DNA of 60,964 nt from an uncultured Gammaproteobacteria bacterium (GTDB lineage: Bacteria > Pseudomonadota > Gammaproteobacteria > Arenicellales > JAANXG01). Where the stretch lies: contig CAMYKW010000011.1 in assembly GCA_947259175.1 (NCBI GenBank), forward strand, positions 1 through 60,964, written 5' to 3'. A model generated the notes under the pieces. The model was not told the DNA's origin. It made no database searches and saw nothing but the letters and a program-made list of their open reading frames with translations. Shown here piece by piece: positions 26,290 to 43,112 of this stretch (positions within the stretch are counted from its first letter, which is position 1; each line of letters begins with the position of its first letter). The translations under genes and the position numbers were made by a program.

Positions 26290-27318
26290 TTATGGCACTC
26301 GTTTGCGAAGTGGACTGCCAGCTCGCGAGCTAAATATCTTGATATTTTCATCTTCGTGCAAACATTCAAAGAATTTGTGTACGTACGCGCTTAGCTCGGC
26401 ATAGTACTCGAGCCACCAGAAGGCGGGCCACCCGATTACCATGGTATCGGCACCGTGCTTAACGGCTTGCTCGAGCTCCGAGATAGCAGACTCGGCGTCC
26501 TTAGGCGGTCCTTCATATTTGCCTTCGCGATCACACAGTCGGACAACGTGCAGGCCGGACGCAAAGCTCTCACCAAACTGGGCGTCATCGACCAAGGCAA
26601 GCGTGGATCCAGGTGAATGAAATTTGTAGACAGTGGTTTCCGCCTCCAGGGTTCGGTTCATCCAGCGGTAGAGTTCGTAGTGTTGCGGATGAACCAGGGC
26701 CAACGGCGATTCGGTCGATTTGTACTCATTGAGCGGGGGTAAGGTCTTTAGAACGTGTTCATGGATGTACAACAATGAGTTCTGAGCATACCACCAGTCG
26801 ACTCGATCATCCTCCCAGATCCGATGTCGTATGCAGTCAACGGCCGAATACCCGCGTTGCCGAAACCGCTCAGCCCAGTAGCCTGGCCATTGTTCATGAC
26901 GATGGTGCGTTCCCCATTGACCCGGGATGGCAGACGAAAACAGCACAATCGTTCCCAGCCGTGTCAAGGAGTCTACGAATTGATTGGCGCAGGCCTCCGG
27001 CAGATACTGCGCGACTTCCAGCGACACCACCAGATCGAACTCCCGCTGCAGCCGTATGGGTGTGCGCAGGTCCCAGGCGATAAATCTTTGACTCGGAATC
27101 TCCAGGTTTTTCTGGTCCACCCACGATCCATCCATTCCTAGAATATCGACAACACCCATGTCGCGAAAGACAGACAGCCAAGTACCTGCCCCGCAGCCGA
27201 CATCCACCACGCTAGACGGCTGAAACCAGTTCACGAGCAAAGGCACGATACGCCGTGCCGATTCACGCGAGCGCTCCTGGATACGGCCTGAGTGAAACAC
27301 TCGAAACGGATGGCTCAT
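26290..27318 (-). CDS. SAM-dependent methyltransferase with C-terminal GWPxFWWL domain
   Basis: A 342-residue two-domain protein. Residues 1-190 are a class I methyltransferase: VVDVGCGAGTWLSVF (SAM loop, 37-51), ILGMDGSWV, FIAWDLRTP and FDLVVSLEVAQYLP. Residues about 237-332 form a separate domain that begins SPGSTLALVDDAQF, contains GPPKDAESAISELEQ, and has its core in GADTMVIGWPAFWWLEYY. The same C-terminal domain ends a second methyltransferase and a sulfotransferase in this cluster, so it is likely a shared docking or substrate-binding module. The methyl acceptor is probably a sugar hydroxyl. A GAAGA precedes the ATG. Confidence 0.83.
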   Translation of the reverse strand: MSHPFRVFHSGRIQERSRESARRIVPLLVNWFQPSSVVDVGCGAGTWLSVFRDMGVVDILGMDGSWVDQKNLEIPSQRFIAWDLRTPIRLQREFDLVVSLEVAQYLPEACANQFVDSLTRLGTIVLFSSAIPGQWGTHHRHEQWPGYWAERFRQRGYSAVDCIRHRIWEDDRVDWWYAQNSLLYIHEHVLKTLPPLNEYKSTESPLALVHPQHYELYRWMNRTLEAETTVYKFHSPGSTLALVDDAQFGESFASGLHVVRLCDREGKYEGPPKDAESAISELEQAVKHGADTMVIGWPAFWWLEYYAELSAYVHKFFECLHEDENIKIFSSRAGSPLRKRVP

Positions 27319-27341
27319 AGGATCTTCGCGAAGTCGCTATG

Positions 27342-28490
27342 TCAGCTGAATTCCGCTGCATCGAGCATTTGCGCAACAACCGTACGAGCCTCGAAATGCT
27401 CTTCCGCGATGGCCCGCGCCGCTCTGGCGTGAAGGCGGTAGTTCGTCTGCAACTGATCCAATCCTTCGAGGACGTCCTCGACTGTGGTAAACGATAACAC
27501 GCCTTCTCCAGTCGGGAGCCAGTCGCCAAATCCGGTGTCTTGATGCAGAACCGGCCGGCCGGCTCCAAGATAGCAAGTACTGCGATCGCTGAACCAGCCG
27601 CAGCGTGAAGCTACATATGCGTGTTTGGCGATGCCGAGGTCAGCGCCGGAGTCTGCAATGAACTTCTTGTAAGTATCAATCTCCAGCGAGACGCGCAGAG
27701 GATTGATCACCTCCCAGCCCTGCTCGCGCAGCTTATCCCTGGGCGCGGCACCGCCCACGGCCACCGCCAAGGGTTGGTCGGTACGGCGAGGCAGAGCGAA
27801 GAACGGCTTGAACGAGCGATCCTTGTAGCCATACACCTGCCCCCCAATATACACATCACTACCCGACGACCAGTTCATCAGAGTGGTTATCGGACGACCG
27901 GCTCGTGCGGGTGAGGCGGTCCATGAACGTGTTGCAACCACAGGGCGAGCCGGTAGCCAGCGCCGTCCTGCGCTGGGTACCGCACAGTCAGGCGCACCGA
28001 TACGGGTCGAGTAGGTGAATAAAACGGGGTAATGAGACAGCGTTTCATCGAGACCGCCGTCGAGCATTTTGCTCTGGGTAAACATCGGGTCTCCGTCTAT
28101 GAATGCGCGTCGCGGGCATCGCTCCAGTTCATCGAACCATGTTGGGTCCGCGAGGGTCAGCACAAATTCAGCTTCGTCGAGTGCGGACGAGAGATCTTGC
28201 CATCCAGCTCCGTGGCATTGGTTCTGCCGGTCGATGAAACTCCAACTCCCATTCGTGATGCCATAGGTCGCGAGTACATTCGCCAAGAATCTAAGGGCAT
28301 AATCCGGATTATCCGTCATTTTCCCCGCTTCGGGGTGGTAACATTCATTTGAATGGTTCAGGCGCTCGACGTAGTGTATGCGGTACCCGAGTTCCTGTAA
28401 TCCGGCAATGTAGTGCAGGTTGTACAAAGCCATTCCCGCAAGGGGTAACTTGCCGATAAAACCAACCACAATAGCAATTCGCTCAGTCAA
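27342..28490 (-). CDS. Cluster paralogue F: glycosyltransferase-like protein (GWFSxRS family)
   Basis: A 382-residue protein starting at a TTG (28490), supported by GGAG seven bases upstream and a stop codon not far before. It belongs to the six-member family of this cluster. The N-terminus reads IAIVVGFIGKLPLAGMALYNLHYIAGLQELGY, here cited in part as LAGMALYNLHYIAGLQELG; the middle has RRAFIDGDPMFTQ and DCAVPSAGRRWLPARPVV. The C-terminal hallmark is AKHAYVASRCGWFSDRS, then CYLGAGRPVLHQDTGFGDW and LPTGEGVLSF. The two-Rossmann layout and the late Glu/Asp-rich site look like a GT-B glycosyltransferase, but donor and acceptor are unknown. This copy is the most diverged in its acidic position (SGADLGIAK where others have E). 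Confidence 0.72.
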   Translation of the reverse strand: MTERIAIVVGFIGKLPLAGMALYNLHYIAGLQELGYRIHYVERLNHSNECYHPEAGKMTDNPDYALRFLANVLATYGITNGSWSFIDRQNQCHGAGWQDLSSALDEAEFVLTLADPTWFDELERCPRRAFIDGDPMFTQSKMLDGGLDETLSHYPVLFTYSTRIGAPDCAVPSAGRRWLPARPVVATRSWTASPARAGRPITTLMNWSSGSDVYIGGQVYGYKDRSFKPFFALPRRTDQPLAVAVGGAAPRDKLREQGWEVINPLRVSLEIDTYKKFIADSGADLGIAKHAYVASRCGWFSDRSTCYLGAGRPVLHQDTGFGDWLPTGEGVLSFTTVEDVLEGLDQLQTNYRLHARAARAIAEEHFEARTVVAQMLDAAEFS

Positions 28491-28572
28491 TCCAGCGCTC
28501 CGTTAGGTCAACTGCTGTAACGAGTCGCAGCACGATTTCTCCCGGTACTCAAAGCCTTACTTGCTGTGAACG

Positions 28573-28589
28573 TACCTATCCGATAGGTA
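28573..28589. promoter_or_regulatory. Perfect palindrome upstream of paralogue F
   Basis: TACCTATC-C-GATAGGTA is an exact 8-base inverted repeat around one base. It lies in the 123-base gap between paralogues E and F, about 85 bases before the TTG start at 28490. It could be a repressor operator or a short RNA hairpin; no T-run follows on either strand. Confidence 0.35.
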
Positions 28590-28613
28590 TAAGCTCCTCT
28601 GCGCTTGCAGCTC

Positions 28614-29801
28614 TCATGCACCTCCACTGTTCATAGATTTATCAATCAAGTCGATCAGTATTGTCTTGGATTCAAAGTATTGTTCAGCTATTTCTCTGGC
28701 TGCTTTGCAATGCATATTATACCTATCCGCCACGTCCTCAATTCCGGCAAGAGCTTCTTCCGGATTTGTAAATCCAATGACCCCGACGCCGGTCGGCAGC
28801 CAATCCGAAAATCCCGTATCTTGCACGATCACTGGCCGTCCACTTGCGAGATAGCAGACACTTCGTTCACTGAACCAGCCACTACGGCTCACGACGTAGC
28901 CGTGTTTCGCTACGCTGAATTCACCCTTAGAATCCCGGACGTACCTCTCATAAGTCGATGGGTCTATTGTAGGTTGACGAGGATCAATCAGCGTCCATCC
29001 GTTCTTTTGCAAGAGTTCTCGCGGCGGCTTGCCACCGCCCAGAGCCAGCTCCAGCCTCTCCGCAGTGCGGGTGGGAAGGTCCATGTACGGTCGGAAGGAT
29101 TCTGACTTCATACCATAGTTCCGGCCCTCGTAGTTGAGCGGCGTATAGCTTTCCCAAAGCATTACGGTAGTGAATTTCCCGTTTGGTCGACCGGGAGTTA
29201 TCGGGAGGGTATCCAGAACCACCGGTTGTCGCGTCGGGATCCAGGGCAAGCCGTCACTGGGTATCGTGCACTGATCAGAATTGATATTTTCAGCGAACGT
29301 CAGAAAGGCTGTGTGCTGCGATGCCAAGTGCATTCTGTCCGGTTGCGACAGATGCTTGATCTGCGTGAACGCCGGGTCTTCATCCACAAAGGCACGATTG
29401 GGAATGGACTGTACCCACGGTCGAACCGGGTTCGCACCGGCCAAATTCAACAACAAGTCGGCAGACCCGCATATCTCGCTGATTCGATCGGCGCATGGCC
29501 CAAGCCAAGTGGTGCGGTGGGCGTCGTAAAATGCCCACCGGTCACCGAAACCAATGGCATCCAAGCTTCGGCCTGCAAATTTGATTCCGTACGTAGGATC
29601 AGCGTCCGTGACGTCTCGTTTGGGGTCGTAGCAAGAAGGATAATCATCACTATCTTCCAGGAAGTAAACATCATGGCCGAGCCGCATGAGTCCCATCAAA
29701 TACTGAAGATTGCTCCACACCATTCCTCCTAACGGTCCGCGTACAATAAAACCCTCGACCACGATGCGCAGCCTTTCGCTATTGGGAGTGTGGCTAATCA
29801 T
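28614..29801 (-). CDS. Cluster paralogue E: glycosyltransferase-like protein (GWFSxRS family)
   Basis: A 395-residue member of the six-paralogue family. Signature segments are RGPLGGMVWSNLQYLMGL, GHDVYFLEDSDDYPSC, RAFVDEDPAFTQIKHL, DQCTIPSDGLPWIPTRQPVV, FTTVMLWESYTPLNYEG, and the C-terminal GEFSVAKHGYVVSRSGWFS, ERSVCYLASGRPVIVQDTG and LPTGVGVIGF. The terminal helices (HCKAAREIAEQYFESKTILI) close the domain as in GT-B enzymes. No signal peptide or membrane segment is seen, so it is cytoplasmic. It is closest in style to paralogues B and F. Role in sugar transfer is inferred from fold pattern and context. Confidence 0.74.
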   Translation of the reverse strand: MISHTPNSERLRIVVEGFIVRGPLGGMVWSNLQYLMGLMRLGHDVYFLEDSDDYPSCYDPKRDVTDADPTYGIKFAGRSLDAIGFGDRWAFYDAHRTTWLGPCADRISEICGSADLLLNLAGANPVRPWVQSIPNRAFVDEDPAFTQIKHLSQPDRMHLASQHTAFLTFAENINSDQCTIPSDGLPWIPTRQPVVLDTLPITPGRPNGKFTTVMLWESYTPLNYEGRNYGMKSESFRPYMDLPTRTAERLELALGGGKPPRELLQKNGWTLIDPRQPTIDPSTYERYVRDSKGEFSVAKHGYVVSRSGWFSERSVCYLASGRPVIVQDTGFSDWLPTGVGVIGFTNPEEALAGIEDVADRYNMHCKAAREIAEQYFESKTILIDLIDKSMNSGGA

Positions 29802-30101
29802 CCGACAACCGGCGTTCTTTGGTTCTCACGCTCTATCCCTCGATACATAGCATCATCATCGGCAACGACTCTATTCTATAGATATTTATTGCCACAGCGA
29901 GGGAGTTGGTGTGATCAGCGCGGGCAACTTTTCTTCGTTAAAAGAGTTTTTCGAATCTTGTCGAGAGTGGTAAACGTTCAGCCCGTTATCGATTCTGCTT
30001 GCGCGTCGGGGCGATGATAATAAGAACGTCAAACATTGTGTTAGCGCTTCCAAGCGTGGCGTGATAGTAATAGGCGGGATGGCACCGCATCGAGAACAAT
30101 T
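29802..30101. other. Intergenic stretch between second methyltransferase and paralogue E
   Basis: Three hundred bases with no gene supported. An AT-rich patch near 29870-29890 contains -10-like hexamers on the minus strand but no acceptable -35 partner. No hairpin terminator or repeat was noticed. Confidence 0.35.
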
Positions 30102-31118
30102 TCAACGTAGGTCCCAGATAACTAAGCGACCATTATTTAGTAGACATGGAAAGTTCGCGCGAAGATGTTCGTGAAAATTCGCATAGTAATCAAGCCACCA
30201 GAATGTAGGCCAACCGAAGACTATGTAATCCGCGCCTGCAGCACGCATTTGCTCCAGTTCCTGGATCGCTGTGTCGTCGTTGGGTGGTGGACCGTGATAA
30301 ATATCGTCGTGCTCAAGAAACGGAATGGTTCTCCTGACTGATGCGATCTTCGATCCGGTCCATTGCTCATCATCCACCAAAATTATCGTGGCGTTTGATG
30401 GGACCACTGAGATCAAGTCGCGAGCCGTGATCTCCATGCGGTGCCCGTCGACTTTGTTGAATGGTACGGGTTCATTAACGATACACGCAGCTAGCCCGCG
30501 TTCATAACCGGGGAGCGTCTGCACCTCAATCGCATCGCCGAGACAGGTCTGCCAGAAGGCGATGTGCTTCTTCTCCTCTTTTCGGTCTGCATCATCCAAG
30601 AGAATGATTGTGCCAGGTCGTGCAAAGTCCATGGCCTGATAAAGGACACCCAGCCGGCCGCCCAAAGCCAGGGGTGGACCGTCCACAAACACCAGATCGG
30701 CTGGTTGCGAAGTTTCAAGATTACGAGCATCGATGTGGTATACCGGAACCGTATTACCAGCGCACTGGCGGGCGACGAGGGGTGCGACAATCACCTTGCC
30801 AGCATTCTTTTCCAGGGTGGATTCAAGAGCGGCCATTGTGGTCCGTGCATAATCAGGATCATGATCTATCGACGTGATGCGGCAGTCTGGGTTTGCTCGG
30901 CTGCAAGCCCACATCATTGCCTGAGTGGACAAACCGGAGCCGAATTCGACAATTTGGCGCGGCGCTAAGCACCGGCAGAGTGCCACCAGAAAGCGAAGTG
31001 CATCGGGTGCGAGGGTCCATCCCGTCGGAATGAGCGGCGGTTCAATCTCAGAGAGGTCGACTTTAACCGCCTCGTCGTAGGCGGCAGTCAGAGCTAAACG
31101 CGATTCTTCGATCGTCAT
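30102..31118 (-). CDS. Methyltransferase-like protein with C-terminal GWPxFWWL domain
   Basis: A 338-residue two-domain protein. Residues about 30-215 form a Rossmann methyltransferase of the type using an acidic SAM loop: PRQIVEFGSGLSTQAMMW (54-71), ITSIDHDPDYARTTM, ADLVFVDGPPLALGGRLG and GTIILLDDADRKEEK. Residues about 240-338 are the domain shared with two other cluster enzymes: SNATIILVDDEQW, GPPPNDDTAIQELEQ, GADYIVFGWPTFWWLDYY and a terminal RLVIWDLR. The N-terminal domain differs from that of the other methyltransferase in the cluster, so the C-terminal domain has been joined to different catalytic partners. The acceptor is unknown. Confidence 0.8.
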   Translation of the reverse strand: MTIEESRLALTAAYDEAVKVDLSEIEPPLIPTGWTLAPDALRFLVALCRCLAPRQIVEFGSGLSTQAMMWACSRANPDCRITSIDHDPDYARTTMAALESTLEKNAGKVIVAPLVARQCAGNTVPVYHIDARNLETSQPADLVFVDGPPLALGGRLGVLYQAMDFARPGTIILLDDADRKEEKKHIAFWQTCLGDAIEVQTLPGYERGLAACIVNEPVPFNKVDGHRMEITARDLISVVPSNATIILVDDEQWTGSKIASVRRTIPFLEHDDIYHGPPPNDDTAIQELEQMRAAGADYIVFGWPTFWWLDYYANFHEHLRANFPCLLNNGRLVIWDLR

Positions 31119-31310
31119 GGCCGTAAGTGAACGCTATGCATGACTGACAACGCGCGCGCTCGGCGCCAAAACACTACGCTGACCGAGCTTATGGCTGATC
31201 GATCCAGGATAGATAACATGATGTACCGTATTTCGGTTGCACAACTGTAGCATTCGAAGTCTAGGCGGCTCCACAAGAATCCACGAAGGTCGCGTCTGAG
31301 TTCAAGACGC

Positions 31311-32048
31311 CTAATAATACTTGGTATCCATGTCGTATTCTTTAAGATCCCATCTCCGGTGTTTAGCATATTCCGTCATATTGCGATTCGGCATGGTTCT
31401 GCTTTTAGTTAAGTCAGCTATCACGAGATTGGGATAACAAACAAATGACCGATTGTGGTACTTCAGCGCCACGTTCCTTACCACGCCGTCACACTGGTAG
31501 TTTCTCTTTTCCAACTCGGTCAATATTCCACTCAATATCGCGACAGAAAAAGCATTAGCAAAAAGGCCATATGTGTGTTTTGTGGGCGCGTAGCATGTAT
31601 TGCGAATGTCGACGCCGTCCCATGACACTTGAGATGCCCCGAGGTACAGAACCTGCCAATCCGATACCGCGCGGATAATATTAGTATGGAAATCACTGTA
31701 TTTTTCCACAAAGTCTTTATGAAAGTAGATGTCATCTTGGAACACTATAATACTTTCATACCCGTGTGCGATGGCGTCTTGAAAAATCGTCATATAGGAC
31801 TTATGAACCCCAAACGCACCGTAACTGCGAAACAAGCCGTATTTGTGCGGTTCGAAACCTGGGGCGGTATCCAAATTCCTTCCCTTGTAATAATTAAATT
31901 CTTCTTTAATCGTGTTCCCGTCAATCGCCGGGAATCTTTGATGTTCTATATTCAGCTCGGCAAGTTTCTGTTTCAATAATTCATATTTCCATAAATCCGC
32001 ATCGAGATTCAGAACGTAGACTTTGGAAAACGTATCGTTAATCAACAT
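31311..32048 (-). CDS. Glycosyltransferase family 25-like enzyme
   Basis: A 245-residue protein of the LPS glycosyltransferase family 25 type: VYVLNLDADLWKYELLKQKL at the N-terminus (the KI..iNLd motif), FPAIDGNTI, SYGAFGVHKSYMTIFQDAI and the metal-binding acidic motif IIVFQDDIYFH, followed by VLYLGASQ and HTYGLFANAFSVAIL. It would add galactose or a similar sugar. The ATG at 32048 overlaps the preceding acyltransferase gene by seven bases. Its codon use is clearly more AT-rich than that of the flanking chromosome, pointing to recent transfer. Confidence 0.82.
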   Translation of the reverse strand: MLINDTFSKVYVLNLDADLWKYELLKQKLAELNIEHQRFPAIDGNTIKEEFNYYKGRNLDTAPGFEPHKYGLFRSYGAFGVHKSYMTIFQDAIAHGYESIIVFQDDIYFHKDFVEKYSDFHTNIIRAVSDWQVLYLGASQVSWDGVDIRNTCYAPTKHTYGLFANAFSVAILSGILTELEKRNYQCDGVVRNVALKYHNRSFVCYPNLVIADLTKSRTMPNRNMTEYAKHRRWDLKEYDMDTKYY

Positions 32049-32641
32049 CGGTCGGTAACGGGATTTAAACGCCTGATGACCCGGGCGGGGTCACCAACAA
32101 TGACTGAATAGGGTGGGACGTCTTCTGAGATTATCGTCTTGCATCCCACAATTGAACCTTCGCCCAGAGTCACGCCGGGCAGAATGACCGAACCAAAGCC
32201 GATCCAAACATTATCCTCGATGAGGACTGGCATGGATTCGTCTGGAGGAGGCAGCCAACGATTGGAATTTTGGGATGCGGCGCGAAGCGCCTGCCGACGA
32301 TTTACGACAGGGCAGTTAATTCCGGACGGAATGTCCGTGACAACCACCCCCCAGGAGAATAAACAGTGAGCGCCGATAGTGACGCGGTCATTGCAAACAA
32401 GATAAGTGTTATTGAGACAGGTGTATGCCCCAATATCAATCCGTCCATGCGGGCCAATAGCAAAGGTCGAGCGATTGTAGGCGCCAGAGGCTTTACCCAT
32501 GATGAGTCCAGGCTTTTTTGCTGAGAGGAACATTGCGAACGCGTATGAACTGTCGATATAAACGTCTTCGCCGATTTGGATGTTTGCAGGTATGGCGCCT
32601 CCGTACCAGTCGTACTCAAGGTGTTTGAGGTCTTCAGTCAT
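32042..32641 (-). CDS. Hexapeptide-repeat (left-handed beta-helix) acyltransferase, copy 2
   Basis: A 199-residue protein with the imperfect hexapeptide repeats of a left-handed parallel beta-helix (IGPHGRIDIGAYTCLNN, VTIGAHCLFSWGVVV, VLIEDNVWIGFGSVILPG, VTLGEGSIVGCKTIIS) and the usual C-terminal PPYSVIVGDPARVIRRL. It probably transfers an acetyl group from acetyl-CoA to a sugar. Its N-terminus (WYGGAIPANIQIGEDVYIDSS) matches that of the adjacent gene, so the two arose by tandem duplication and then diverged. It lies seven bases after that gene and overlaps the GT25 gene. Confidence 0.85.
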   Translation of the reverse strand: MTEDLKHLEYDWYGGAIPANIQIGEDVYIDSSYAFAMFLSAKKPGLIMGKASGAYNRSTFAIGPHGRIDIGAYTCLNNTYLVCNDRVTIGAHCLFSWGVVVTDIPSGINCPVVNRRQALRAASQNSNRWLPPPDESMPVLIEDNVWIGFGSVILPGVTLGEGSIVGCKTIISEDVPPYSVIVGDPARVIRRLNPVTDRC

Positions 32642-32648
32642 CGGGAAT

Positions 32649-33236
32649 TTACTTCACCAGTGAAGCGGGATTTCCGGCAATAACCTCATCGGGCGGGACA
32701 TCCTCGACGACGACCGCCCCGGGGGATACGACCGTGCCGCTACCTATTCGTACTCCCTTTAGAATTGTGGCGTTGTAACCGATCCAAACGTCATCCTCTA
32801 TTACCACTTCCGAAGCGGAAACTGAAGGTCGGCGTTTGCGGTCGCCGACCGGAGATAGTGCGATCGTGTCCGCCAACCGTGCTGCAGGGTCGAGCGGATG
32901 GAAATCCGAGTCGATGATCGTGACGCCCCCGGCGATGAACACTCGCGAGCCGATGATTATTCGGCGCGCGGCTACCAGCGAGGCGTTCGCCAAATAGCAG
33001 TCGCTGCCAATTTCTATAGTCCCGGATTCATCTGCGGCAAGAGAGGTACGCCACAGCGTGACGTTACTTCCGATGCGAAGTCCTACACGCGCTGTCGAAC
33101 GAAACTCCTTAAAACAGAATGTCGAATCTACGACACAGTTCGGGCCGATCTCAATGTTCTTCGGAATTTCTCCCGGATACCAGTCGCCGGAAAGGCGACC
33201 ACCTGGGAGCAGTGCGTGGAAGCGCGGCGTACTCAT
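32649..33236 (-). CDS. Hexapeptide-repeat acyltransferase, copy 1
   Basis: A 195-residue left-handed beta-helix protein: WYPGEIPKNIEIGPNCVVDS, LRIGSNVTLWRT, IEIGSDCYLANASLV, IIIGSRVFIAGGVTIIDSD, VVIEDDVWIGYNATILKG, VRIGSGTVVSPGAVVVED and IAGNPASLVK. DSDFHPLD carries the His typical of WbbJ/LacA-type O-acetyltransferases. It is a tandem paralogue of the next gene and starts six bases after the stop of paralogue D, so the series is one transcript. Different insertions between the repeats suggest that the two copies modify different sugars or positions. Confidence 0.86.
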   Translation of the reverse strand: MSTPRFHALLPGGRLSGDWYPGEIPKNIEIGPNCVVDSTFCFKEFRSTARVGLRIGSNVTLWRTSLAADESGTIEIGSDCYLANASLVAARRIIIGSRVFIAGGVTIIDSDFHPLDPAARLADTIALSPVGDRKRRPSVSASEVVIEDDVWIGYNATILKGVRIGSGTVVSPGAVVVEDVPPDEVIAGNPASLVK

Positions 33237-33242
33237 AGTGAT

Positions 33243-34433
33243 TCAATCCATCAGTTGTTCCAAAAACTTAGCGAGCACGACCGCGCTGTCGAAATAGTCC
33301 TCGGCCACCGCGCGCGCAGCACGGGCATGTTTAGCCGGCTCAGCTTCGATACGAGCGAGGACCTCCGCGGCGTGTGTCGCATCGTCGAATGCGAATAGAC
33401 CGGCTCCGGTGGGAATATACCTTGACCAGGCAGTGTCCTGAGTCACCACTGGCCGGCCGGATGCAAGGTAACATGCCGATCGTCCCGAGAACCACCCAGT
33501 GCGCGCTTTTACGTACGTCTCTTTGGCGACCGAAAGTTCACCCCTGGACGACTGGATGAAGGAACGATAACTGCGCCAATCCGGAACCGTCTCCTGCGGA
33601 TTGAGTACAGACCAACCATTACGTTGAGCTTGGTCCGTGGGAAACGGAGTGCCGCTAGTCTGTCCAACCGCCACTGCCAGAGCAATTGGCTCCACCAACC
33701 GGGGTAGCGTCAAAAGTCTTTCAAACTCCACGTTTTTCTGGCCCCAAGCTTCGCCTTCGAATTGCACGGGGGGCACCACGCTCCAGTTCATAACCGTACT
33801 GTAAGAGGCATTAGCTTGTTTGGGAGGATCAGAGTAGGGCCAGTGGCCAAGACAAATGGGCTGGCGTGTGGGGCGCCAGTCAATACCGCATCGAGGGACG
33901 CGGCAATCTGCAGCGCCGATATTTTCGCCGAATGTGAAATGATGGGTATGTGCGTGCACGAGATTTCGCATGCTGGACTCGCCCGGCGTGAAGGCGGTCT
34001 CTGTCACATATTGCATCTGAGTGAACATGGGATCTGAATCGATTAATGCGCGCATGGGAATCGCCTGGTATTCATCACGCATCACCGTAGAGCACGATAT
34101 ATTGACGAATATGTCGGCGCTGTTACACACTTCGCGTAACGTGTTCGTGCTCATGCCGAACGTCTCGTTGGTGACGGCATCACGATAAGCCCAACGGTCG
34201 GCGAGCCCGAACGACGTCATAATGTCTTGAACTAAAGAAACGTTTCTGGAGCAACTAACGGCCTCACCGGCATCCTCTTGGAAAACAGGCCACAACCCGG
34301 TGTCTTCCAAGTAATACACATCGCAGCCGAGTTCGGCGAAACCCAGAGGGTACTGAACGTAGTCCCACGTGGTTCCGCCCGCCTCGAGGAGGCCCAGGAA
34401 ACCGCCTACGATTATCCGCGGTTGTTCTGGCAT
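33243..34433 (-). CDS. Cluster paralogue D: glycosyltransferase-like protein (GWFSxRS family)
   Basis: A 396-residue family member. Visible signature segments are GCDVYYLEDTGLWPVFQED, RALIDSDPMFTQMQYV, DCRVPRCGIDWRPTRQPICL, YSTVMNWSVVPPVQFEGEAW, and the C-terminal GELSVAKETYVKARTGWFS, GRSACYLASGRPVVTQDTA and IPTGAGLFAF. The N-terminal glycine motif reads EAGGTTWDYVQYPLGF, differing from the GGMVW seen in other copies. The Gly in GRS replaces the Asp or Glu of the other members. The protein is cytoplasmic with no membrane segment. Glycosyl transfer is inferred. Confidence 0.73.
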   Translation of the reverse strand: MPEQPRIIVGGFLGLLEAGGTTWDYVQYPLGFAELGCDVYYLEDTGLWPVFQEDAGEAVSCSRNVSLVQDIMTSFGLADRWAYRDAVTNETFGMSTNTLREVCNSADIFVNISCSTVMRDEYQAIPMRALIDSDPMFTQMQYVTETAFTPGESSMRNLVHAHTHHFTFGENIGAADCRVPRCGIDWRPTRQPICLGHWPYSDPPKQANASYSTVMNWSVVPPVQFEGEAWGQKNVEFERLLTLPRLVEPIALAVAVGQTSGTPFPTDQAQRNGWSVLNPQETVPDWRSYRSFIQSSRGELSVAKETYVKARTGWFSGRSACYLASGRPVVTQDTAWSRYIPTGAGLFAFDDATHAAEVLARIEAEPAKHARAARAVAEDYFDSAVVLAKFLEQLMD

Positions 34434-34490
34434 AAAATTATCGAGATTATCGTCAGTCTGAGCTTGGCGCCGAGACGGAGTTATAAAGCA

Positions 34491-35708
34491 TCATAGAAGT
34501 CCCACTCGCCGTAAGATATCACCCACCACTCTTTCGGCCTCGAAGTACTCTCGCGCAATCTCGAGGGCGGCAATGGAATGGCGCTGGTACTCGTCGGCAA
34601 TATGCGCAATCGCGTCGAGTGCGTCGTCATGAGTTTGAAATGAGAACAAGCCCTGTCCTGTCGGAACGAACTTACCGAAACCCGTATCCTGGGTAACGAC
34701 CGGACGCGCGGCTGCCAAGTAACAGACACTGCGATCGCTGAACCATCCGCTTCGGGGACGAACGTACTGCTCTTTTGAGACGGTAAACTCACCCAAAGAC
34801 CTGTTGATGTAGCTATGGTAAGACTTTGGGTCTTCTAGCGTACCAGATGCGATCGTCCGCCAGCCGCACTGGCCGAGTCGGTCCAGGTCCTCTGCGTTGA
34901 TTGCTCCTACCGCGAGCTCGAGCGGAAGTCTTGACTCGTTAGGCAAGTCGATAAATCTCAAGAATTCATAATGCTTGCTCCAATGCCAGGCTTCGCCGTT
35001 CCAGATCACGTCTTTACTTTTATGTTTCCAGTTTGCCACGCTGGTGAGGGCCGCCCCATCAGGAGGATTGGTACGCGTTTGCCATAAATCGACGCAAACC
35101 GGGGGTCGTGTCGGCAACCACCTATATTTGACCACAGGCACGAGGCAATCCGCTGCGCCGAGGTTTTCCCCGTACGTAAAAAGATAGTCGTATGCGTCGA
35201 GCTCTTGTATATAAGTTTGATTGCCCTTAGCGACTTCAACTTGCTTATAGACAGGATCGGTTTCCAGATAAATCAGGCACTTTATGCTGGTGTCAACGTT
35301 CTCGAGTTCTTGCGCGCCACACAGGTTAATTACCGCGTCCGCCTCCCGGTATAGCCTGTTCAATCCCGAGCGATCGGTCGCGCCTACACAAGCGGCTTTA
35401 GAGTCCGGTCGGCCAAATACCCAGCGATCGCCAAGGCCTATCATTTCCATGAAACTTGCGAGCAGGCGCACATTGGCACCGAAGTTCTCCGTAGGGATGT
35501 AGGTCACGGGGTCGTAGAGAAGACGGTCTGAGTCTTCCACGTACCAAACATCAAATCCCAGGCGCCGCAGTGGAACGAGGTAATGATAGACCTGCCAGAC
35601 CATACCGCCGAAAGGTGAAGAAGCGAGCATCCCCCAAACGATAATTACACCGCGTGTGGCTGACGGGTATTCGTCCGGTCGAATGATATTGTCATCGGGC
35701 TTGGTCAT
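34491..35708 (-). CDS. Cluster paralogue C: glycosyltransferase-like protein (GWFSxRS family)
   Basis: About 405 residues. The second in-frame ATG (35708) is preferred because AGAGGA lies six bases before it, whereas it touches the ATG at 35714. Signature segments are SPFGGMVWQVYHYLVPLRRL, FDVWYVEDSDRLLYDP, CLIYLETDPVYKQVEV, DCLVPVVKYRWLPTRPPVC, and the C-terminal GEFTVSKEQYVRPRSGWFS, DRSVCYLAAARPVVTQDTG and VPTGQGLFSF. The conserved middle aspartates are partly changed (ETDPVYKQ for DxDPxFTQ), which hints at a different donor or acceptor. It follows paralogue B by 18 bases. Confidence 0.74.
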   Translation of the reverse strand: MTKPDDNIIRPDEYPSATRGVIIVWGMLASSPFGGMVWQVYHYLVPLRRLGFDVWYVEDSDRLLYDPVTYIPTENFGANVRLLASFMEMIGLGDRWVFGRPDSKAACVGATDRSGLNRLYREADAVINLCGAQELENVDTSIKCLIYLETDPVYKQVEVAKGNQTYIQELDAYDYLFTYGENLGAADCLVPVVKYRWLPTRPPVCVDLWQTRTNPPDGAALTSVANWKHKSKDVIWNGEAWHWSKHYEFLRFIDLPNESRLPLELAVGAINAEDLDRLGQCGWRTIASGTLEDPKSYHSYINRSLGEFTVSKEQYVRPRSGWFSDRSVCYLAAARPVVTQDTGFGKFVPTGQGLFSFQTHDDALDAIAHIADEYQRHSIAALEIAREYFEAERVVGDILRRVGLL

Positions 35709-35726
35709 CTTCATTCCTCTGTAACG

Positions 35727-36866
35727 TCAAGCTAGAGCGGCCTCGAGCAGCGCAGGCAACACTCGCTCGGCGGCAAAATGCCCGGTTGCCAGATCGCGTG
35801 CTACCTTTCGATGGGACTCATAGTCTTTGTTGATTGCTTCAATTCCTGCGACGGCCTCATCGAGGTCGCTGAACGTGACAACGCCTTCTCCGGTAGGCAG
35901 CCAGCTGGCGATGCCGGTATCCTGTACCAGCACAGGCCGGCCTGAGGCCAGATAGCAGACACTACGATCGCTAAACCAACCACTGCGTGTGTCGACATAA
36001 GTGTTTTTGGCAACACCAAACTCTGCACGCGACCTTTGAATGAAGCGACGATATTGTTGCGGTGTTTTCGATACGGTCCAGCCGTCGACTGCTTGCCAGC
36101 CATTGTCAGCGAGTCGTTTATTACCGCCTCCCGTGACCGCTATCTTTAAGATCTGATTCGTATGGCTTGGTAGAGAAAAAAATTTCTCGAATTCCCTGTT
36201 TCTCTGCCCGTATTCGACACCCTTGTAATTCAGGTCCTTCATGCCTCGCCAACGGATGATGGAAGTGAATGGTCCAGAGCCGACGTCATTCGCAAATGGC
36301 CACTCCTGTAGCACGACTGGAGATACCGTCTTGAGCCACTTTCGCCCCAGCGTGGGAATAGGACAGTCCGGGGATTCGATCCGCTGCCCAATCGTGAACA
36401 GAGCTTCACTACGATCGAGGGTCTCGATAAATGCCGGCTCACCCCGCGCGTAGCGGAACTGTGTGAAGCCGGGATCGATGTCAATAAATGCCCGCCGGCG
36501 CGGCAGGTCGTACTCCGGTCGCCAGGAGAGAAACGGGATGCCGCGAATGAGGAGGAGGTCAGCTCGTTCGCAAACCTCCCGGAACGTATCGATAGGCAGG
36601 CCTGCCGATTTGTCTCCCGCACGGTACATCCATCTTTCGGCAAAGCCGAAGGGCTCCAGGCACGATCGAACGTATTCACCGGGATAATCGAGATCCCAGG
36701 TCGTCTCCTCCTTTTCCCATTTGTACACACCCGACCATTCTCCGGAATCCTCCAGGTAAAAGACGTCGTGACCGAGCATGCTTAGACCGATCAGGTATTG
36801 CAGGTTGGCCCAGGCCTGCCCCCCCGTTACGGATCGTCCTATTCCTCCGGTAAGTACGATGACCAT
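35727..36866 (-). CDS. Cluster paralogue B: glycosyltransferase-like protein (GWFSxRS family)
   Basis: A 379-residue protein with AAGGG six bases before the ATG. Signature segments are TGGQAWANLQYLIGLSMLG, HDVFYLEDSGEWSGVYKW, RRAFIDIDPGFTQFRYARG, DCPIPTLGRKWLKTVSPVV, and the C-terminal AEFGVAKNTYVDTRSGWFS, DRSVCYLASGRPVLVQDTG and LPTGEGVVTF. It carries the cleanest form of the family consensus and is a good query for the group. A GGN-type glycine loop (AVTGGGNKRLADNGW) starts the second half. Sugar transfer is inferred from the GT-B-like organisation and the gene neighbourhood. Confidence 0.75.
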   Translation of the reverse strand: MVIVLTGGIGRSVTGGQAWANLQYLIGLSMLGHDVFYLEDSGEWSGVYKWEKEETTWDLDYPGEYVRSCLEPFGFAERWMYRAGDKSAGLPIDTFREVCERADLLLIRGIPFLSWRPEYDLPRRRAFIDIDPGFTQFRYARGEPAFIETLDRSEALFTIGQRIESPDCPIPTLGRKWLKTVSPVVLQEWPFANDVGSGPFTSIIRWRGMKDLNYKGVEYGQRNREFEKFFSLPSHTNQILKIAVTGGGNKRLADNGWQAVDGWTVSKTPQQYRRFIQRSRAEFGVAKNTYVDTRSGWFSDRSVCYLASGRPVLVQDTGIASWLPTGEGVVTFSDLDEAVAGIEAINKDYESHRKVARDLATGHFAAERVLPALLEAALA

Positions 36867-36948
36867 TCTTACCCTTTAATCGCATTCCGCAATGGAAGTG
36901 GATGCATTCCACTGCCCTTGCTAAACAGATTTAGATTTGAATTCAAAT

Positions 36949-38112
36949 CTAGAAACACGCTGTGAGCATTTGCTCCAAACAACCCCTGGCGTCAAATAAT
37001 GATTCCGCGAGTTCGCGAGCTGCTCGCGTGTGTTGCGAGTAGTTATCGTTAATGTCAGCTACTCCGGCGACAGCGCCATCGAGATCATTAAACGCGACAA
37101 TGCCCATACCGGTTGGGAGATGGGCCGAGTAGCCGGTATCTTCAGCAAGCACTGGTCGGCCCGAGGCCAGATACGCCACACTTCGATCGCTGAACCAGCC
37201 GGTACGTAACTCTTGATAAATCGGCTTTGCACAACAGATCTCGGCTCGGGAGTGTTGCAGGTAGGATTGATAAGCCTCTGGAGATGCCGCTACTTTCCAT
37301 GGATCAGTTAGCTGCCATCCATGCGTCTCCAGTAATTCCCTGTCCCCCGATCGATCGTCCGGATGAATCTGGATCGCAAGTTCAAAAGACCCGCTCGCGC
37401 GTTGCGGCAACTGCAGATACCTCAAGTAAGCATCTCGCTTCGAGATGCTAAGAATTCGATCGTCAAGCCACAGTTCACCCCAATTCCAATGCGTCACTGA
37501 ACTGAAAGGACTGGCCAGATGAGGTCTATGTGGTTGAGGCCAACTAGGTATGTGTACGAACGGCCGAAACGTGTGCCACTCGTGGCCCAACTTGGGGACC
37601 TCACAGTCCGGCTCATTGATATTCAGACCGACTGTCAGGTAACGTTGGTGTTTATCGATGCGGATATCATTCTGCTGGGGAACGGACACTTGGAGATGTC
37701 CGGGATCGAGGTCGATAAGCACCGGGTATCGAAACTCATCCAGTAGTGGCTGTTGCGCAGCAGCGCAAATATTCCAGAACATATCTGCAGTGTTGATGAG
37801 CGCCTTGGTCTCGGAATAAGAACGACCGTACGTGGTTGCGAAGCGCAGGTCGTATTCCTCGCAGTCTTTGTCGAACAAAAGTACAACTGCGTTTTCACCT
37901 AGCCCGTGACACTGCAGACGATCGAAGAATCCGTAAATCATCTGATGGTCTCGCTGAGAGTCTCCGGTCGACCAGACTAGTTCTAATAGCGTGGCATCGT
38001 GGCCTAATGCCGTTAATCCAAGTAGATACTGCAATAGAACGTTCCAATGACCACCGGCTTGAGAATAGCGCGCTAGTGATCCACTGCCGAGAACGAGACG
38101 AAGATGAGACAT
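36949..38112 (-). CDS. Cluster paralogue A: glycosyltransferase-like protein (GWFSxRS family)
   Basis: A 387-residue protein from the ATG at 38112 (a longer frame reaches 38157, but the conserved region starts with SHLRLVLGSGSLARYSQAGG). It is the most diverged member at the N-terminus: GGHWNVLLQYLLGLTALGHD, LIDLDPGHLQVSV and DCEVPKLGHEWHTFRPFV. The C-terminal hallmark is intact: AEICCAKPIYQELRTGWFS, DRSVAYLASGRPVLAEDTG and LPTGMGIVAF. A different first domain with the same second domain fits a change of acceptor with a retained donor site. It is the first of the four paralogues transcribed in a row (A-D). Confidence 0.73.
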   Translation of the reverse strand: MSHLRLVLGSGSLARYSQAGGHWNVLLQYLLGLTALGHDATLLELVWSTGDSQRDHQMIYGFFDRLQCHGLGENAVVLLFDKDCEEYDLRFATTYGRSYSETKALINTADMFWNICAAAQQPLLDEFRYPVLIDLDPGHLQVSVPQQNDIRIDKHQRYLTVGLNINEPDCEVPKLGHEWHTFRPFVHIPSWPQPHRPHLASPFSSVTHWNWGELWLDDRILSISKRDAYLRYLQLPQRASGSFELAIQIHPDDRSGDRELLETHGWQLTDPWKVAASPEAYQSYLQHSRAEICCAKPIYQELRTGWFSDRSVAYLASGRPVLAEDTGYSAHLPTGMGIVAFNDLDGAVAGVADINDNYSQHTRAARELAESLFDARGCLEQMLTACF

Positions 38113-38400
38113 TCTCGCTCTCAGGTGACTCGCATCAGAAGTTTGGGATCGGACCACCCGCCTCTACGATTTGCGGCTCCAGTATCATCAATATCCCGCA
38201 GCGCGAAAGATACGAACAATGACTGGCAGATCCTGAGAATGGCGGAATACCGAGCAACAACAGCAAATGTATTGACGACAATTGCAGCTCTGACCGACGC
38301 TACGCGTGTCGCGAAAACGGCGCATTGCCGACTTATGCGACCCATTAAGAGATTGAAAATGGCCATAGTTTATTTTATCAACCGTTGCTCTGGAAAACGG

Positions 38401-39357
38401 TCAGTCAGACTCGGCATCGAGATCGTAAATGACCGCGCGCGGGCTCTTGAAAATACACTTATGATTTACACGCAGGTATCGTTCAAGATCCTTGTAATGT
38501 GATAACCACCAGAACGATGGCCACAAGAGCACCAGATACTGCGCACCCTTTTCTCGCAAGTGCTCGAGTTCGCAAATCGCCGACTCGTCATCAGCCGAAG
38601 GGCTCCAGTGCCCGTCGTTACGCTCTCCCATCGATATCAACTCGCGGTTCTCTAAATAGATGTTCGTATCCAGCGCATGATCATCGACAAGAACTAGCTT
38701 GCTCCCGGGAGGTATATATTGTGTGATTTCCTGGTTTGCCTTTTGCGCATTGCAGTAATGCTCAACGTCGGCATGCCAGCTTCGTTTTGTTGTTTTCGTC
38801 ACATTGTGCTTTGTGTTCCATTCATTCAAAGCGCGCTCGAGGTCTCCTCGCGCGCCGATAGCCTCCCAGAACCTTGGAAACACTTCTTGTATGTCTGCTA
38901 GCCAGATGGTCAATTTTTGTGTTTTGTCCCGCAAAAACAACTCAATGTTGTCATTTACCCTTCGCCAGTACTGCATACTCGCCTGAAGTTTGAACTCATC
39001 TGACAGAGCAAACGTGTGGCGACCATACTGTAGCGGACCCCAGGCATAGGAGAACACAATGCTGTCGATGCTCCGATGTGCCAGACTCTTCGCGACTTCA
39101 TGTTGATCCCGGATCAAATGTACATAAAACGCGGTGTCTCCGTATTCCTTGTCGAGCGTCCCTAAAAACCAGGACAGGCGGTTATCCACCTCTATATGAT
39201 TGGGCGGGTATTTGAGCGATGCGTATGCGAGTTGCCCCTGTGCAACACGATTTGCGCGATGGGATTCATGCGCGACCGTGTAGTTGGTCATATGACGACA
39301 CGATCTCGTGAAAGTCTCGCTAGCACAACGCCCCGTAGAAAGCACGAAGACATTCAC
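38401..39357 (-). CDS. Sulfotransferase-like protein with C-terminal GWPxFWWL domain
   Basis: A 318-residue two-domain protein starting at a GTG. Residues 1-200 resemble PAPS-dependent sulfotransferases: FVLSTGRCASETFTR at residues 4-18 matches the 5'-phosphosulfate loop, and FYVHLIRDQHEVAKSLAHRS (78-97) matches the 3'-phosphate-binding strand-helix with its Arg and Ser. Residues about 216-313 are the domain also found in two methyltransferases of the cluster: PGSKLVLVDDHAL, SPSADDESAICELEHLREK, GAQYLVLLWPSFWWLSHY and AVIYDLD. The product may therefore be sulfated. No PAPS synthesis genes are in the window. Confidence 0.76.
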   Translation of the reverse strand: MNVFVLSTGRCASETFTRSCRHMTNYTVAHESHRANRVAQGQLAYASLKYPPNHIEVDNRLSWFLGTLDKEYGDTAFYVHLIRDQHEVAKSLAHRSIDSIVFSYAWGPLQYGRHTFALSDEFKLQASMQYWRRVNDNIELFLRDKTQKLTIWLADIQEVFPRFWEAIGARGDLERALNEWNTKHNVTKTTKRSWHADVEHYCNAQKANQEITQYIPPGSKLVLVDDHALDTNIYLENRELISMGERNDGHWSPSADDESAICELEHLREKGAQYLVLLWPSFWWLSHYKDLERYLRVNHKCIFKSPRAVIYDLDAESD

Positions 39358-39483
39358 CGTCGCAGTTCCCCCGAGTCGATCACTCGGTTGGCCATGCCGG
39401 CGTTAAATGTCATTATGCACTCAGGGTTTGAGCATTCGTCCAGCGCGATTGACGGCGGCAATCTCGCCGACGTGGGGATAGAA

Positions 39484-43076: not shown

Positions 43077-43112
43077 GACAGGCGTGGCCAATTAGGCCCG
43101 GAGATTCCTAAG

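Follow-up and report, generated by a model that had tools for sequence, protein, structure and literature searches.

The window analysed here, a stretch of 60,964 nucleotides from an uncultured gammaproteobacterium (contig CAMYKW010000011.1), carries two methyltransferases (MT1 and MT2) and a sulfotransferase-like protein (ST) that end in the same domain, called here the tail (Table 1). An earlier note, made from the sequence alone, had placed the three reading frames correctly, and all lie on the minus strand. Six proteins of the GWFSxRS family accompany them; 14 of 25 members of that family match PF13524, Glyco_trans_1_2 (E 0.1 or better, best 1.5e-8). The acyltransferase-like genes, the ABC half-transporters and the 850-aa fusion protein are also recurrent neighbours across loci.

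Table 1. Features of the cluster in the window (tail limits as defined by the profile)
Feature	Position	Strand	Basis
MT1, 342 aa, Methyltransf_23 + tail	26290..27318	-	Pfam PF13489, 37.1 bits (cut-off 27)
MT1 tail domain, residues 229-333	26320..26634	-	Profile E 5.5e-38; genome-wide E 7.1e-37; BLASTP to other two tails
GWFSxRS glycosyltransferase-like protein 1	27342..28490	-	GWFSxRS family profile
GWFSxRS protein 2	28614..29801	-	GWFSxRS family profile
MT2, 338 aa, Methyltransf_24 + tail	30102..31118	-	Pfam PF13578, 34.3 bits (cut-off 26.3)
MT2 tail domain, residues 233-338	30105..30422	-	Profile, BLASTP; AlphaFold2 model pLDDT 91.0, pTM 0.85
Two hexapeptide-repeat acyltransferase-like genes	32042..33236	-	Family in 6/30 loci; one member matches PF00132
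GWFSxRS protein 3	33243..34433	-	GWFSxRS family profile
GWFSxRS protein 4	34491..35714	-	GWFSxRS family profile
GWFSxRS protein 5	35727..36866	-	GWFSxRS family profile
GWFSxRS protein 6	36949..38157	-	GWFSxRS family profile
ST, 318 aa, sulfotransferase-like domain + tail	38401..39357	-	Motifs; 50%-identical tail-less relative
ST tail domain, residues 209-317	38407..38733	-	Profile, BLASTP; AlphaFold2 model pLDDT 86.1, pTM 0.81
Two ABC exporter half-transporters	39484..43091	-	Family in 14/30 loci; Walker A + LSGGQ in both
850-aa Glyco_hydro_2_C + Glycos_transf_2 fusion	43113..45665	-	Pfam; relatives near GWFSxRS genes in several loci

When the whole proteins are compared by BLASTP, the tail is the sole significant alignment of each pair: MT1 and MT2 are 39% identical over 97 residues (E 4e-20), MT1 and ST 31% over 112 (E 1e-16), and MT2 and ST 35% over 105 (E 3e-22), while all other segments have E values of 0.24 or worse. 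The 66 to 82 bits of the real tail pairs are far above the 25.0 bits or less reached with 100 shuffles of the partner. A profile made from 33 tails outside the window finds these three (at E 7e-43, 7e-33 and 2e-32), bearing out the claim that one module ends all three; up to E 10 it finds no fourth among the 485 ORFs of at least 60 aa in the window. The motif proposed for the module needs some loosening. Its I-x-D-L end occurs in MT2 and ST only, as was said, but an exact PPxxD is found in MT2 alone, its counterparts being GPPKDAE in MT1 and SPSADDE in ST. In the long motif that ends in GWPxFWWLxxY, neither the R nor the Y is present in MT1, and ST has LLWP in place of xGWP.

As had been supposed, the catalytic domains do not form one homologous set. 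MT1 and MT2 fall into separate Pfam families, their catalytic domains give no significant BLASTP alignment with each other, and only the tails align across the three proteins. ST matches no Pfam or NCBIfam family up to E 1, and a sequence search of the PDB gave nothing credible; its name comes from motifs read by eye (STGRCASETF and RDxxxVAKSL). Its catalytic domain has a relative in Pseudanabaena PCC 7367, 50% identical, that carries no tail. Since tail-less relatives of the catalytic domain of MT1 exist as well, the tail is evidently not needed for either fold.

The module turns out to be more widespread than the three window enzymes suggested. By record titles, the 75 tails gathered come from eight phyla, in 34 genomes or records of which 11 are related cyanobacteria, and the tail is C-terminal in 74 of the 75 proteins. 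Listing by profile the catalytic domains to which it is fused across bacteria, a step the earlier note had proposed, gave GT2, GT34, GT4-like, methyltransferase, sulfotransferase and other domains; nearly all the identified partners are of kinds able to build or decorate glycans. None of 36 tails matches a family of Pfam or NCBIfam (E up to 0.1), and in the open-access literature, judged by title and abstract, no earlier description fits. The tail is an undescribed protein domain, one homologous module borne by many enzyme families. A cyanobacterial tail has no match in plasmids at E 0.01, and none of 86 pattern matches of the tail profile in viral contigs is related. Two sequence matches in the PDB were judged to be chance, a local one to a GHL15 protein (E 0.0023, or 0.039 with a larger profile) and one to a designed TIM barrel (E above 1).

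Do tails follow their enzymes? On the tail tree, whose bootstrap had yet to settle and in which the MT1 tail of the window forms a long branch, tails have moved between unrelated enzymes, once inside one cluster; in one cluster of G366, a single gene separates a GT2 from a sulfotransferase with a sister tail. Between distant genomes, mean tail identity within the MT1 class is 0.374 (3 pairs) against 0.387 to other classes, and the corresponding values are 0.381 (1 pair) and 0.425 for MT2, 0.451 (14 pairs) and 0.443 for ST4, and 0.457 (131 pairs) and 0.449 for GT2a. GT2b, the remainder class under labels set by motif, is the exception (0.525 against 0.458), and it drives the overall excess of same-class identity between distant groups (0.489 over 292 pairs, against 0.437 over 1856 different-class pairs). 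Judged by identity, the similarity of tails between distant genomes for most classes hardly depends on the enzyme. Nonetheless, class clusters on the tree, with 25 changes against a mean of 33.8 after shuffling, a number as low being reached in none of 200 shuffles. This clustering and the higher same-class identity indicate that tails partly follow their enzymes. Vertical descent of tails with their catalytic domains accordingly holds in part, GT2b and GT2c clustering by class and MT1 and MT2 not.

The AlphaFold2 models of the MT2 and ST tails share one predicted alpha/beta fold. The MT2 model runs H E H E H E H H E E, that is, five helices and five strands; in the ST model, the helix at 26-30 is unassigned and two short extra strands are assigned. 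Simple hydropathy, applied to each protein as far as its tail reaches, gives no TM-like segment in 68 of the 75, one in five and two in two. The tail is a portable, soluble domain, alpha/beta in fold, about 105 residues long and probably non-catalytic, with conserved aromatic and acidic segments. In a set of 57 dereplicated tails, conservation reaches 90% or more at 15 positions (D18; P35, E38, G45, P47, A53, E56 and R59; W72, F75, W76, W77 and Y81; L88 and L106). Glycan-binding sites typically have aromatic and acidic groups. Several of the conserved positions fall on helices or strands, and the conserved aromatics could be residues of the core instead of a binding site.

Comparison of the models with known structures suggests a modest resemblance to the luminal dome, or CC unit, of GT-C glycosyltransferases (CeDPY19, STT3, AglB, ArnT, ALG12 and AftD), whose luminal or periplasmic domains supply the top VIA-align matches of both, at middling scores. 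For MT2, ranks 1 to 11 are all GT-C (seven different proteins, Z 6.2 to 4.5), the next being unrelated at Z 4.4, a tie by the rule of the tool. For ST, GT-C takes 8 of the first 12 ranks (four different proteins, Z 5.9 to 4.4), PLP enzymes and, at rank 5 with Z 5.3, a substrate-binding protein standing among them. All the GT-C matches fall below the Z of 8 asked for by VIA-align guidance. Foldseek places AglB first for the MT2 model (E 0.078); for the ST model it puts dihydrofolate reductases (DHFRs) first, at TM of about 0.2 to 0.3, and AglB at rank 49, with TM 0.49. A viral fold library gave no match to the tail at E 0.001 or better. The predicted five helices and five strands of the MT2 tail equal the count given for the CeDPY19 core by Bloch et al. 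(PMC10154233); in that enzyme a groove with the dome on one side and luminal loops on the other takes up the acceptor peptide (PMC10154233), and in AglB the acceptor pocket belongs to the CC unit (PMC3703281). There are differences. GT-C domes sit on multi-spanning membrane enzymes, whereas the tail sits on soluble ones, and the WWDYG of the oligosaccharyltransferase CC unit is absent from the tail, in which LVD follows strand 1 and WPxFWWLxxY follows strand 3. When the tail profile was scored by hhalign against 26 bacterial PMT_2 C-termini, taken as single sequences (4 of 30 loci with a short C-terminus being left out), and against 200 decoys, the medians were 12.35 and 11.6 (p 0.055). The best score belonged to a decoy, inspected and judged to be chance. 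At the level of sequence, no relation of the tail to bacterial GT-C C-termini is detectable.

What might the tail do? Perhaps each cluster builds one glycan, and the tail would give every enzyme the same grip on that glycan or its carrier. By binding the acceptor or carrier, it would recruit glycosyltransferases, methyltransferases and sulfotransferases to a single acceptor. This is put forward, tentatively, as the most likely role. It is favoured by the glycan-related nature of nearly all identified partners, by tail identities that for most classes hardly vary with the enzyme, by the conserved aromatic and acidic residues, by the place of the acceptor in CeDPY19 and AglB, and by the tail-less relatives of the MT1 and ST catalytic domains; against it count the partial tracking of enzymes by tails, the modest structural match, and sulfotransferase-like genes of tail clusters that lack the tail. 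Carbohydrate-binding modules offer an analogy, as they too stand beside varied catalytic domains acting on one kind of substrate and have conserved aromatics. They differ in that Pfam includes CBM families and none of its families matches any of 36 tails, and in that the tails are on biosynthetic enzymes.

The tail is strongly associated with clusters of GWFSxRS glycosyltransferases, and the main rival to an acceptor grip draws on this association: the tail may instead dock to a conserved protein of the cluster, most plausibly a GWFSxRS glycosyltransferase but alternatively the 850-aa GT2 or the ABC exporter, and so bring the enzymes together in a complex. Of 26 tail genomes in which both were sought, 24 contain GWFSxRS proteins (the genome-wide count leaves out L006, L008, L009, L012, L015, L019, L021, L023 and G992). 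In the order of G364, the centre left out, they occur in 4 of 4 tail genomes, three with very similar neighbourhoods, against 2 of 238 others (Fisher p 1e-7). The median gap from tail gene to nearest GWFSxRS gene is 1.2 kb (47 tails on loci with such a gene). A shared substrate predicts this co-localisation equally, however, and the association has gaps: the tail genomes G367 and G377, both metagenome assemblies, one with its tail on a contig of 6.7 kb, gave no GWFSxRS match, and several GWFSxRS clusters have no tail. The sister tails of G366 are also what docking would expect. Assembly-line docking domains are short terminal modules common to different proteins of one cluster; the tail is likewise terminal and common to different cluster proteins, but it makes up an entire alpha/beta domain, and the modifying enzymes that bear it are free-standing. 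Conservation and predicted fold lean towards binding of a common substrate, even though the same pattern would result if the partner were a conserved protein. Docking is a real possibility.

It is unlikely that the tail is a structural or inert appendage, whether a cap that lends stability or a C-terminus that was shuffled and has no binding role. That would suit the tail-less catalytic relatives and the tail-less enzymes within tail clusters, among them sulfotransferase-like genes named by motif (L086 4073 and 4840, L151 5907), which also dispose of the idea that every decorating enzyme of a cluster bears the tail. If the tail bound neither ligand nor partner, its strong conservation across phyla and enzyme types and its tie to one kind of cluster would be difficult to account for. 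Clustering of the enzymes by tail-to-tail binding is quite improbable and cannot be the whole story, for although the copies lie within 7 kb on one contig in 9 of 10 multi-copy genomes (on two contigs in the tenth), 10 of 20 tail genomes have a single copy, including G363, nearly complete by its record title, the others being mostly draft assemblies.

To return to the acceptor grip, a broader version of it can be framed, more doubtfully: a GT-C-dome fold might have become a soluble mobile module of at least two subfamilies, passed among glycosyltransferases, methyltransferases, sulfotransferases and others, and serving as the acceptor handle in a glycan assembly line, itself undescribed and spanning phyla, that is built around GWFSxRS glycosyltransferases and ABC exporters. 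If the acceptor grip is right, one undescribed domain would mark the enzymes working on one glycan, and its presence could serve to locate such clusters in genomes, to set their limits and to tell which enzymes share a polymer. A fold known otherwise from within large membrane glycosyltransferases could then be studied on a small soluble model, and the tail could be used as a portable handle for recruitment when glycan-modifying enzymes are engineered.

The second of these subfamilies is under-counted, because the genome surveys used the first-subfamily profile with a threshold of E 1e-6 (0.01 in one survey). One of its tails has no match in plasmids, phages or viral contigs. Tails resembling it are probably common, and those the earlier note mentioned from elsewhere, of the form GA-x-Y/F-L-V-F-P...WWL, fit this divergent subfamily, which comes from a single genome, belonging to another phylum, where it is borne by similar enzymes whose genes neighbour those of GWFSxRS proteins.

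MT1 and MT2, the two methyltransferases, and ST, the sulfotransferase-like protein, end in one C-terminal domain of about 105 residues (the tail), as the earlier note had proposed. For the three pairs of proteins, the only significant BLASTP alignment is the tail (E = 4e-20, 1e-16, and 3e-22), with shuffled controls reaching at most 25.0 bits, and a profile built on 33 tails of other organisms picks exactly these three proteins from the 485 ORFs of the window (E = 7e-43 to 2e-32). The catalytic parts are indeed not homologous as a set: MT1 and MT2 match different Pfam families, ST has no match in Pfam or NCBIfam, and pairwise significance is confined to the tail. In the genome that the window comes from, a three-row profile found no extra copy up to E = 10. 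Noncatalytic modules shared by several enzymes are a known idea; the tail domain itself is absent from the curated libraries searched (0 of 36 tails match Pfam or NCBIfam at E = 0.1), and the open-access papers searched gave no prior description of it.

Location and content of the features discussed
Feature	Stretch	Coordinates	Strand	Content
MT1 ORF	window	26290-27318	minus	Methyltransf_23 above Pfam cut-off
MT2 ORF	window	30102-31118	minus	Methyltransf_24 above Pfam cut-off
ST ORF	window	38401-39357	minus	sulfotransferase-like by P-loop-like motifs
Cross-phylum gene set	window	27342-45665		six GWFSxRS GT-B-like proteins, hexapeptide acyltransferase pair, two ABC exporter halves, 850-aa Glyco_hydro_2_C-GT2 fusion
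Gene pair	window	22020-25059		645-aa protein and GT4
Export genes	L068	11914-14522		HlyD-like and MacB-like
SDR gene	L079	7192-8346		over two frames, the second part ending in a tail
Short ORF	L151	38-385		tail on 116 residues
Second-subfamily frames	L201	4869-17470		divergent tails in three large open frames, those of G809 listed below
G809 tail frame 1				large open frame: GT2, Sulfotransfer_3, tail, GT4
G809 tail frame 2				large open frame: methyltransferase, tail, GT-B
G809 tail frame 3				large open frame: Methyltransf_24, tail

The earlier note had also proposed that a profile be used to list the catalytic domains fused to the tail. In all, 34 genomes or records supplied 75 tails, on GT2, GT34, methyltransferase, sulfotransferase, and other proteins. 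Motif labels, the last GT2 label being a remainder class, place 52 of them on GT2-type proteins; sulfotransferase-like proteins carry 9, methyltransferases 6, and other proteins 5, while the remaining 3 belong to fragments or unknowns. Among the representatives scanned, the families above the Pfam cut-off N-terminal to tails are Glycos_transf_2, Glyco_transf_34, Methyltransf_23, Methyltransf_24, TylF, Sulfotransfer_3, and Sulfotransfer_4, along with adh_short (the SDR gene in two frames) and Abhydrolase_3 followed by Sulfotransfer_4. GT4-like and NodZ-like partners fall below the cut-off, and a GT8-like partner has no Pfam match. In 74 of the 75 cases, no more than 25 residues separate the end of the tail from the end of the ORF; the sole internal tail lies between GT34 and FkbM methyltransferase domains. 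A plasmid-borne CDS of 228 residues in Pseudanabaena PCC 7367 is 50% identical to ST, over the catalytic part only, and plasmid relatives of MT1 match within residues 1-212 in the best 10 of 12 records. Since these relatives match the catalytic part alone, the tail is an addition to catalytic domains. The tail on the short ORF of L151, near a contig start, is possibly free-standing or belongs to a truncated gene.

In part, tails follow their enzymes; they have also moved from one enzyme to another. Between distant genomes, the identity of tails on like vs unlike enzymes is nearly equal in three classes, at 0.374 vs 0.387 for class MT1, 0.451 vs 0.443 for ST4, and 0.457 vs 0.449 for GT2a; it is lower on like enzymes for MT2 (0.381 vs 0.425, with one like pair) and higher for GT2b, the remainder class (0.525 vs 0.458), and for all classes pooled (0.489 vs 0.437). 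A tree of 51 tails, whose bootstrap had not fully settled, needs 25 class changes vs a shuffled mean of 33.8, clustering by class more than all 200 shuffles. The same tree has well-supported branches that join tails of different enzymes: GT2 and sulfotransferase of one cluster in G366, the genome of a Gemmatimonadaceae locus (99/84); the SDR tail and GT2a tails of related cyanobacteria (100/89); GT8-like and MT2 tails of two planctomycete assemblies (95/90); and NodZ-like and GT4-like tails (98/81). The starred branches by themselves require at least three changes for GT2a and at least two each for ST4 and MT2. The class clustering together with these mixed branches shows both behaviors.

AlphaFold2 predicts one alpha/beta fold for two of the tails: in models of the MT2 tail (pLDDT 91.0, pTM 0.85) and of the ST tail (pLDDT 86.1, pTM 0.81, from an alignment without the MT2 tail), the secondary-structure elements line up, apart from one short helix that the ST model lacks and two short strands that it has in addition. 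With the MT2 model, the first 11 rows from VIA-align are seven different proteins, all GT-C membrane glycosyltransferases, with scores of 6.2 (CeDPY19), 6.1 (ALG12), 5.9 (yeast OST), 5.8 (ArnT), and on down to 4.5 (P. furiosus STT3), over 83-99 residues at 2.8-3.9 A; unrelated folds start right below, at 4.4. With the ST model, GT-C proteins (CeDPY19, ArnT, AftD, AglB) take 8 of the first 12 rows, among a substrate-binding protein and PLP enzymes. The top Foldseek matches are an AglB domain for the MT2 model (E = 0.078) and DHFRs, at low TM-scores, for the ST model. Sequence comparison of the tail with bacterial GT-C C-termini gave no link. The predicted resemblance to GT-C domes is a lead, at Z values that are middling by the tool's own scale. 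Bloch et al. (PMC10154233) describe the core of the CeDPY19 dome as an alpha5-beta5 sandwich that GT-Cs have in common, and they place the acceptor peptide in a groove that lies between the dome and luminal loops. In the MT2 model, helices and strands number five each. The CC unit of AglB bears a WWDYG acceptor pocket (PMC3703281).

Fifteen positions are conserved at 90% or more in 57 dereplicated tails. By the secondary structure of the MT2 model, they lie at the end of strand 1 (D18), from strand 2 to the long helix (P35, E38, G45, P47, A53, E56, R59), and at the end of strand 3 and in the helix after it (W72, F75, W76, W77, Y81), with two hydrophobic positions, L88 and L106, outside these segments. 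The window tails deviate at a few of them (e.g., Q59 in MT2). The tail may be a common acceptor- or carrier-binding domain, through which different enzymes would bind the same acceptor or carrier. We hold this reading tentatively, at somewhat short of even chances, and prefer it on three grounds: strand ends carry aromatic and acidic groups, tails have moved from enzyme to enzyme, and the fold points the same way. Docking of the tail to a shared protein is a more doubtful possibility. Both are likelier than a tail that is inert or structural; that role is improbable, yet it gains somewhat, at the expense of acceptor or carrier binding, from conserved positions located on helices and strands as well and from the partial agreement of tails with enzyme class overall. 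Self-assembly is very unlikely; the presence of just one copy in half of the 20 tail genomes surveyed speaks against it.

There is also a second, divergent subfamily. G809, from the phylum of G366, has three tails with a mean identity of 27-30% to the first type, and GWFSxRS genes, of a glycosyltransferase-like family, are on the same stretch. Sitting on comparable kinds of enzyme, and again accompanied by GWFSxRS genes, this sister subfamily supports a single common role, as seen in one genome. Its tails are reminiscent of tails in actinobacteria and proteobacteria.

In the samples taken, the tail is rare. Scanning genome contigs yielded 28 loci, assigned by record titles to Verrucomicrobiota, Cyanobacteriota, Pseudomonadota, Nitrospirota, Gemmatimonadota, Planctomycetota, Chloroflexota, and Actinomycetota, plus one bacterium not named further. 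With the central genome counted, the tail is found in 2 of 60 relatives of the window genome, 1 of 299 genomes of its phylum, and, for G364 (the genome of a Nostoc locus), 1 of 194 genomes of its phylum and 5 of 243 of its order. In the phylum of G366, 3 of 298 genomes match at E = 0.01: the center, one second-subfamily genome, and one fragment. Of the ten genomes with several copies, nine have every copy on a single contig, within 7 kb, and the tenth has its copies on two contigs.

GWFSxRS genes share the stretch with the tail in 17 of 20 stretches fetched (the exceptions are L070, L080, and L084) and in all four later ones (L148-L151). At the genome level, the family is present in 24 of 26 tail genomes (18 of 20, both of the relatives sample, and five of five in the order sample, with one of these already among the 20), nine further tail records or genomes lying outside the 26. 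In the order of G364, without the center, 4 of 4 tail genomes have it vs 2 of 238 others (Fisher p = 1e-7), with fewer independent cases since three of the four neighborhoods are very similar; among the relatives, without the own genome, the figures are 1 of 1 vs 1 of 58 (p = 0.03). The converse fails: several GWFSxRS clusters lack the tail. By PF13524, which 14 of the 25 members match with E no higher than 0.1, the family is GT-B-like. One GWFSxRS query had no match at E = 1e-10 in the plasmid collection. ABC exporters recur in 14 of 30 loci and hexapeptide acyltransferases in 6 of 30, and the Glyco_hydro_2_C-GT2 fusion is another recurrent neighbor. Gene sets related to the cross-phylum set of the window exist in other genomes without the tail. 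In the cyanobacterial clusters, as in L068, HlyD-like and MacB-like export genes come after the tail genes. The 645-aa protein of the window has no Pfam match above cut-off; by reading, a similar protein of 583 aa in L157 and GT4s similar to its neighbor in L083 and L157 lie near GWFSxRS genes.
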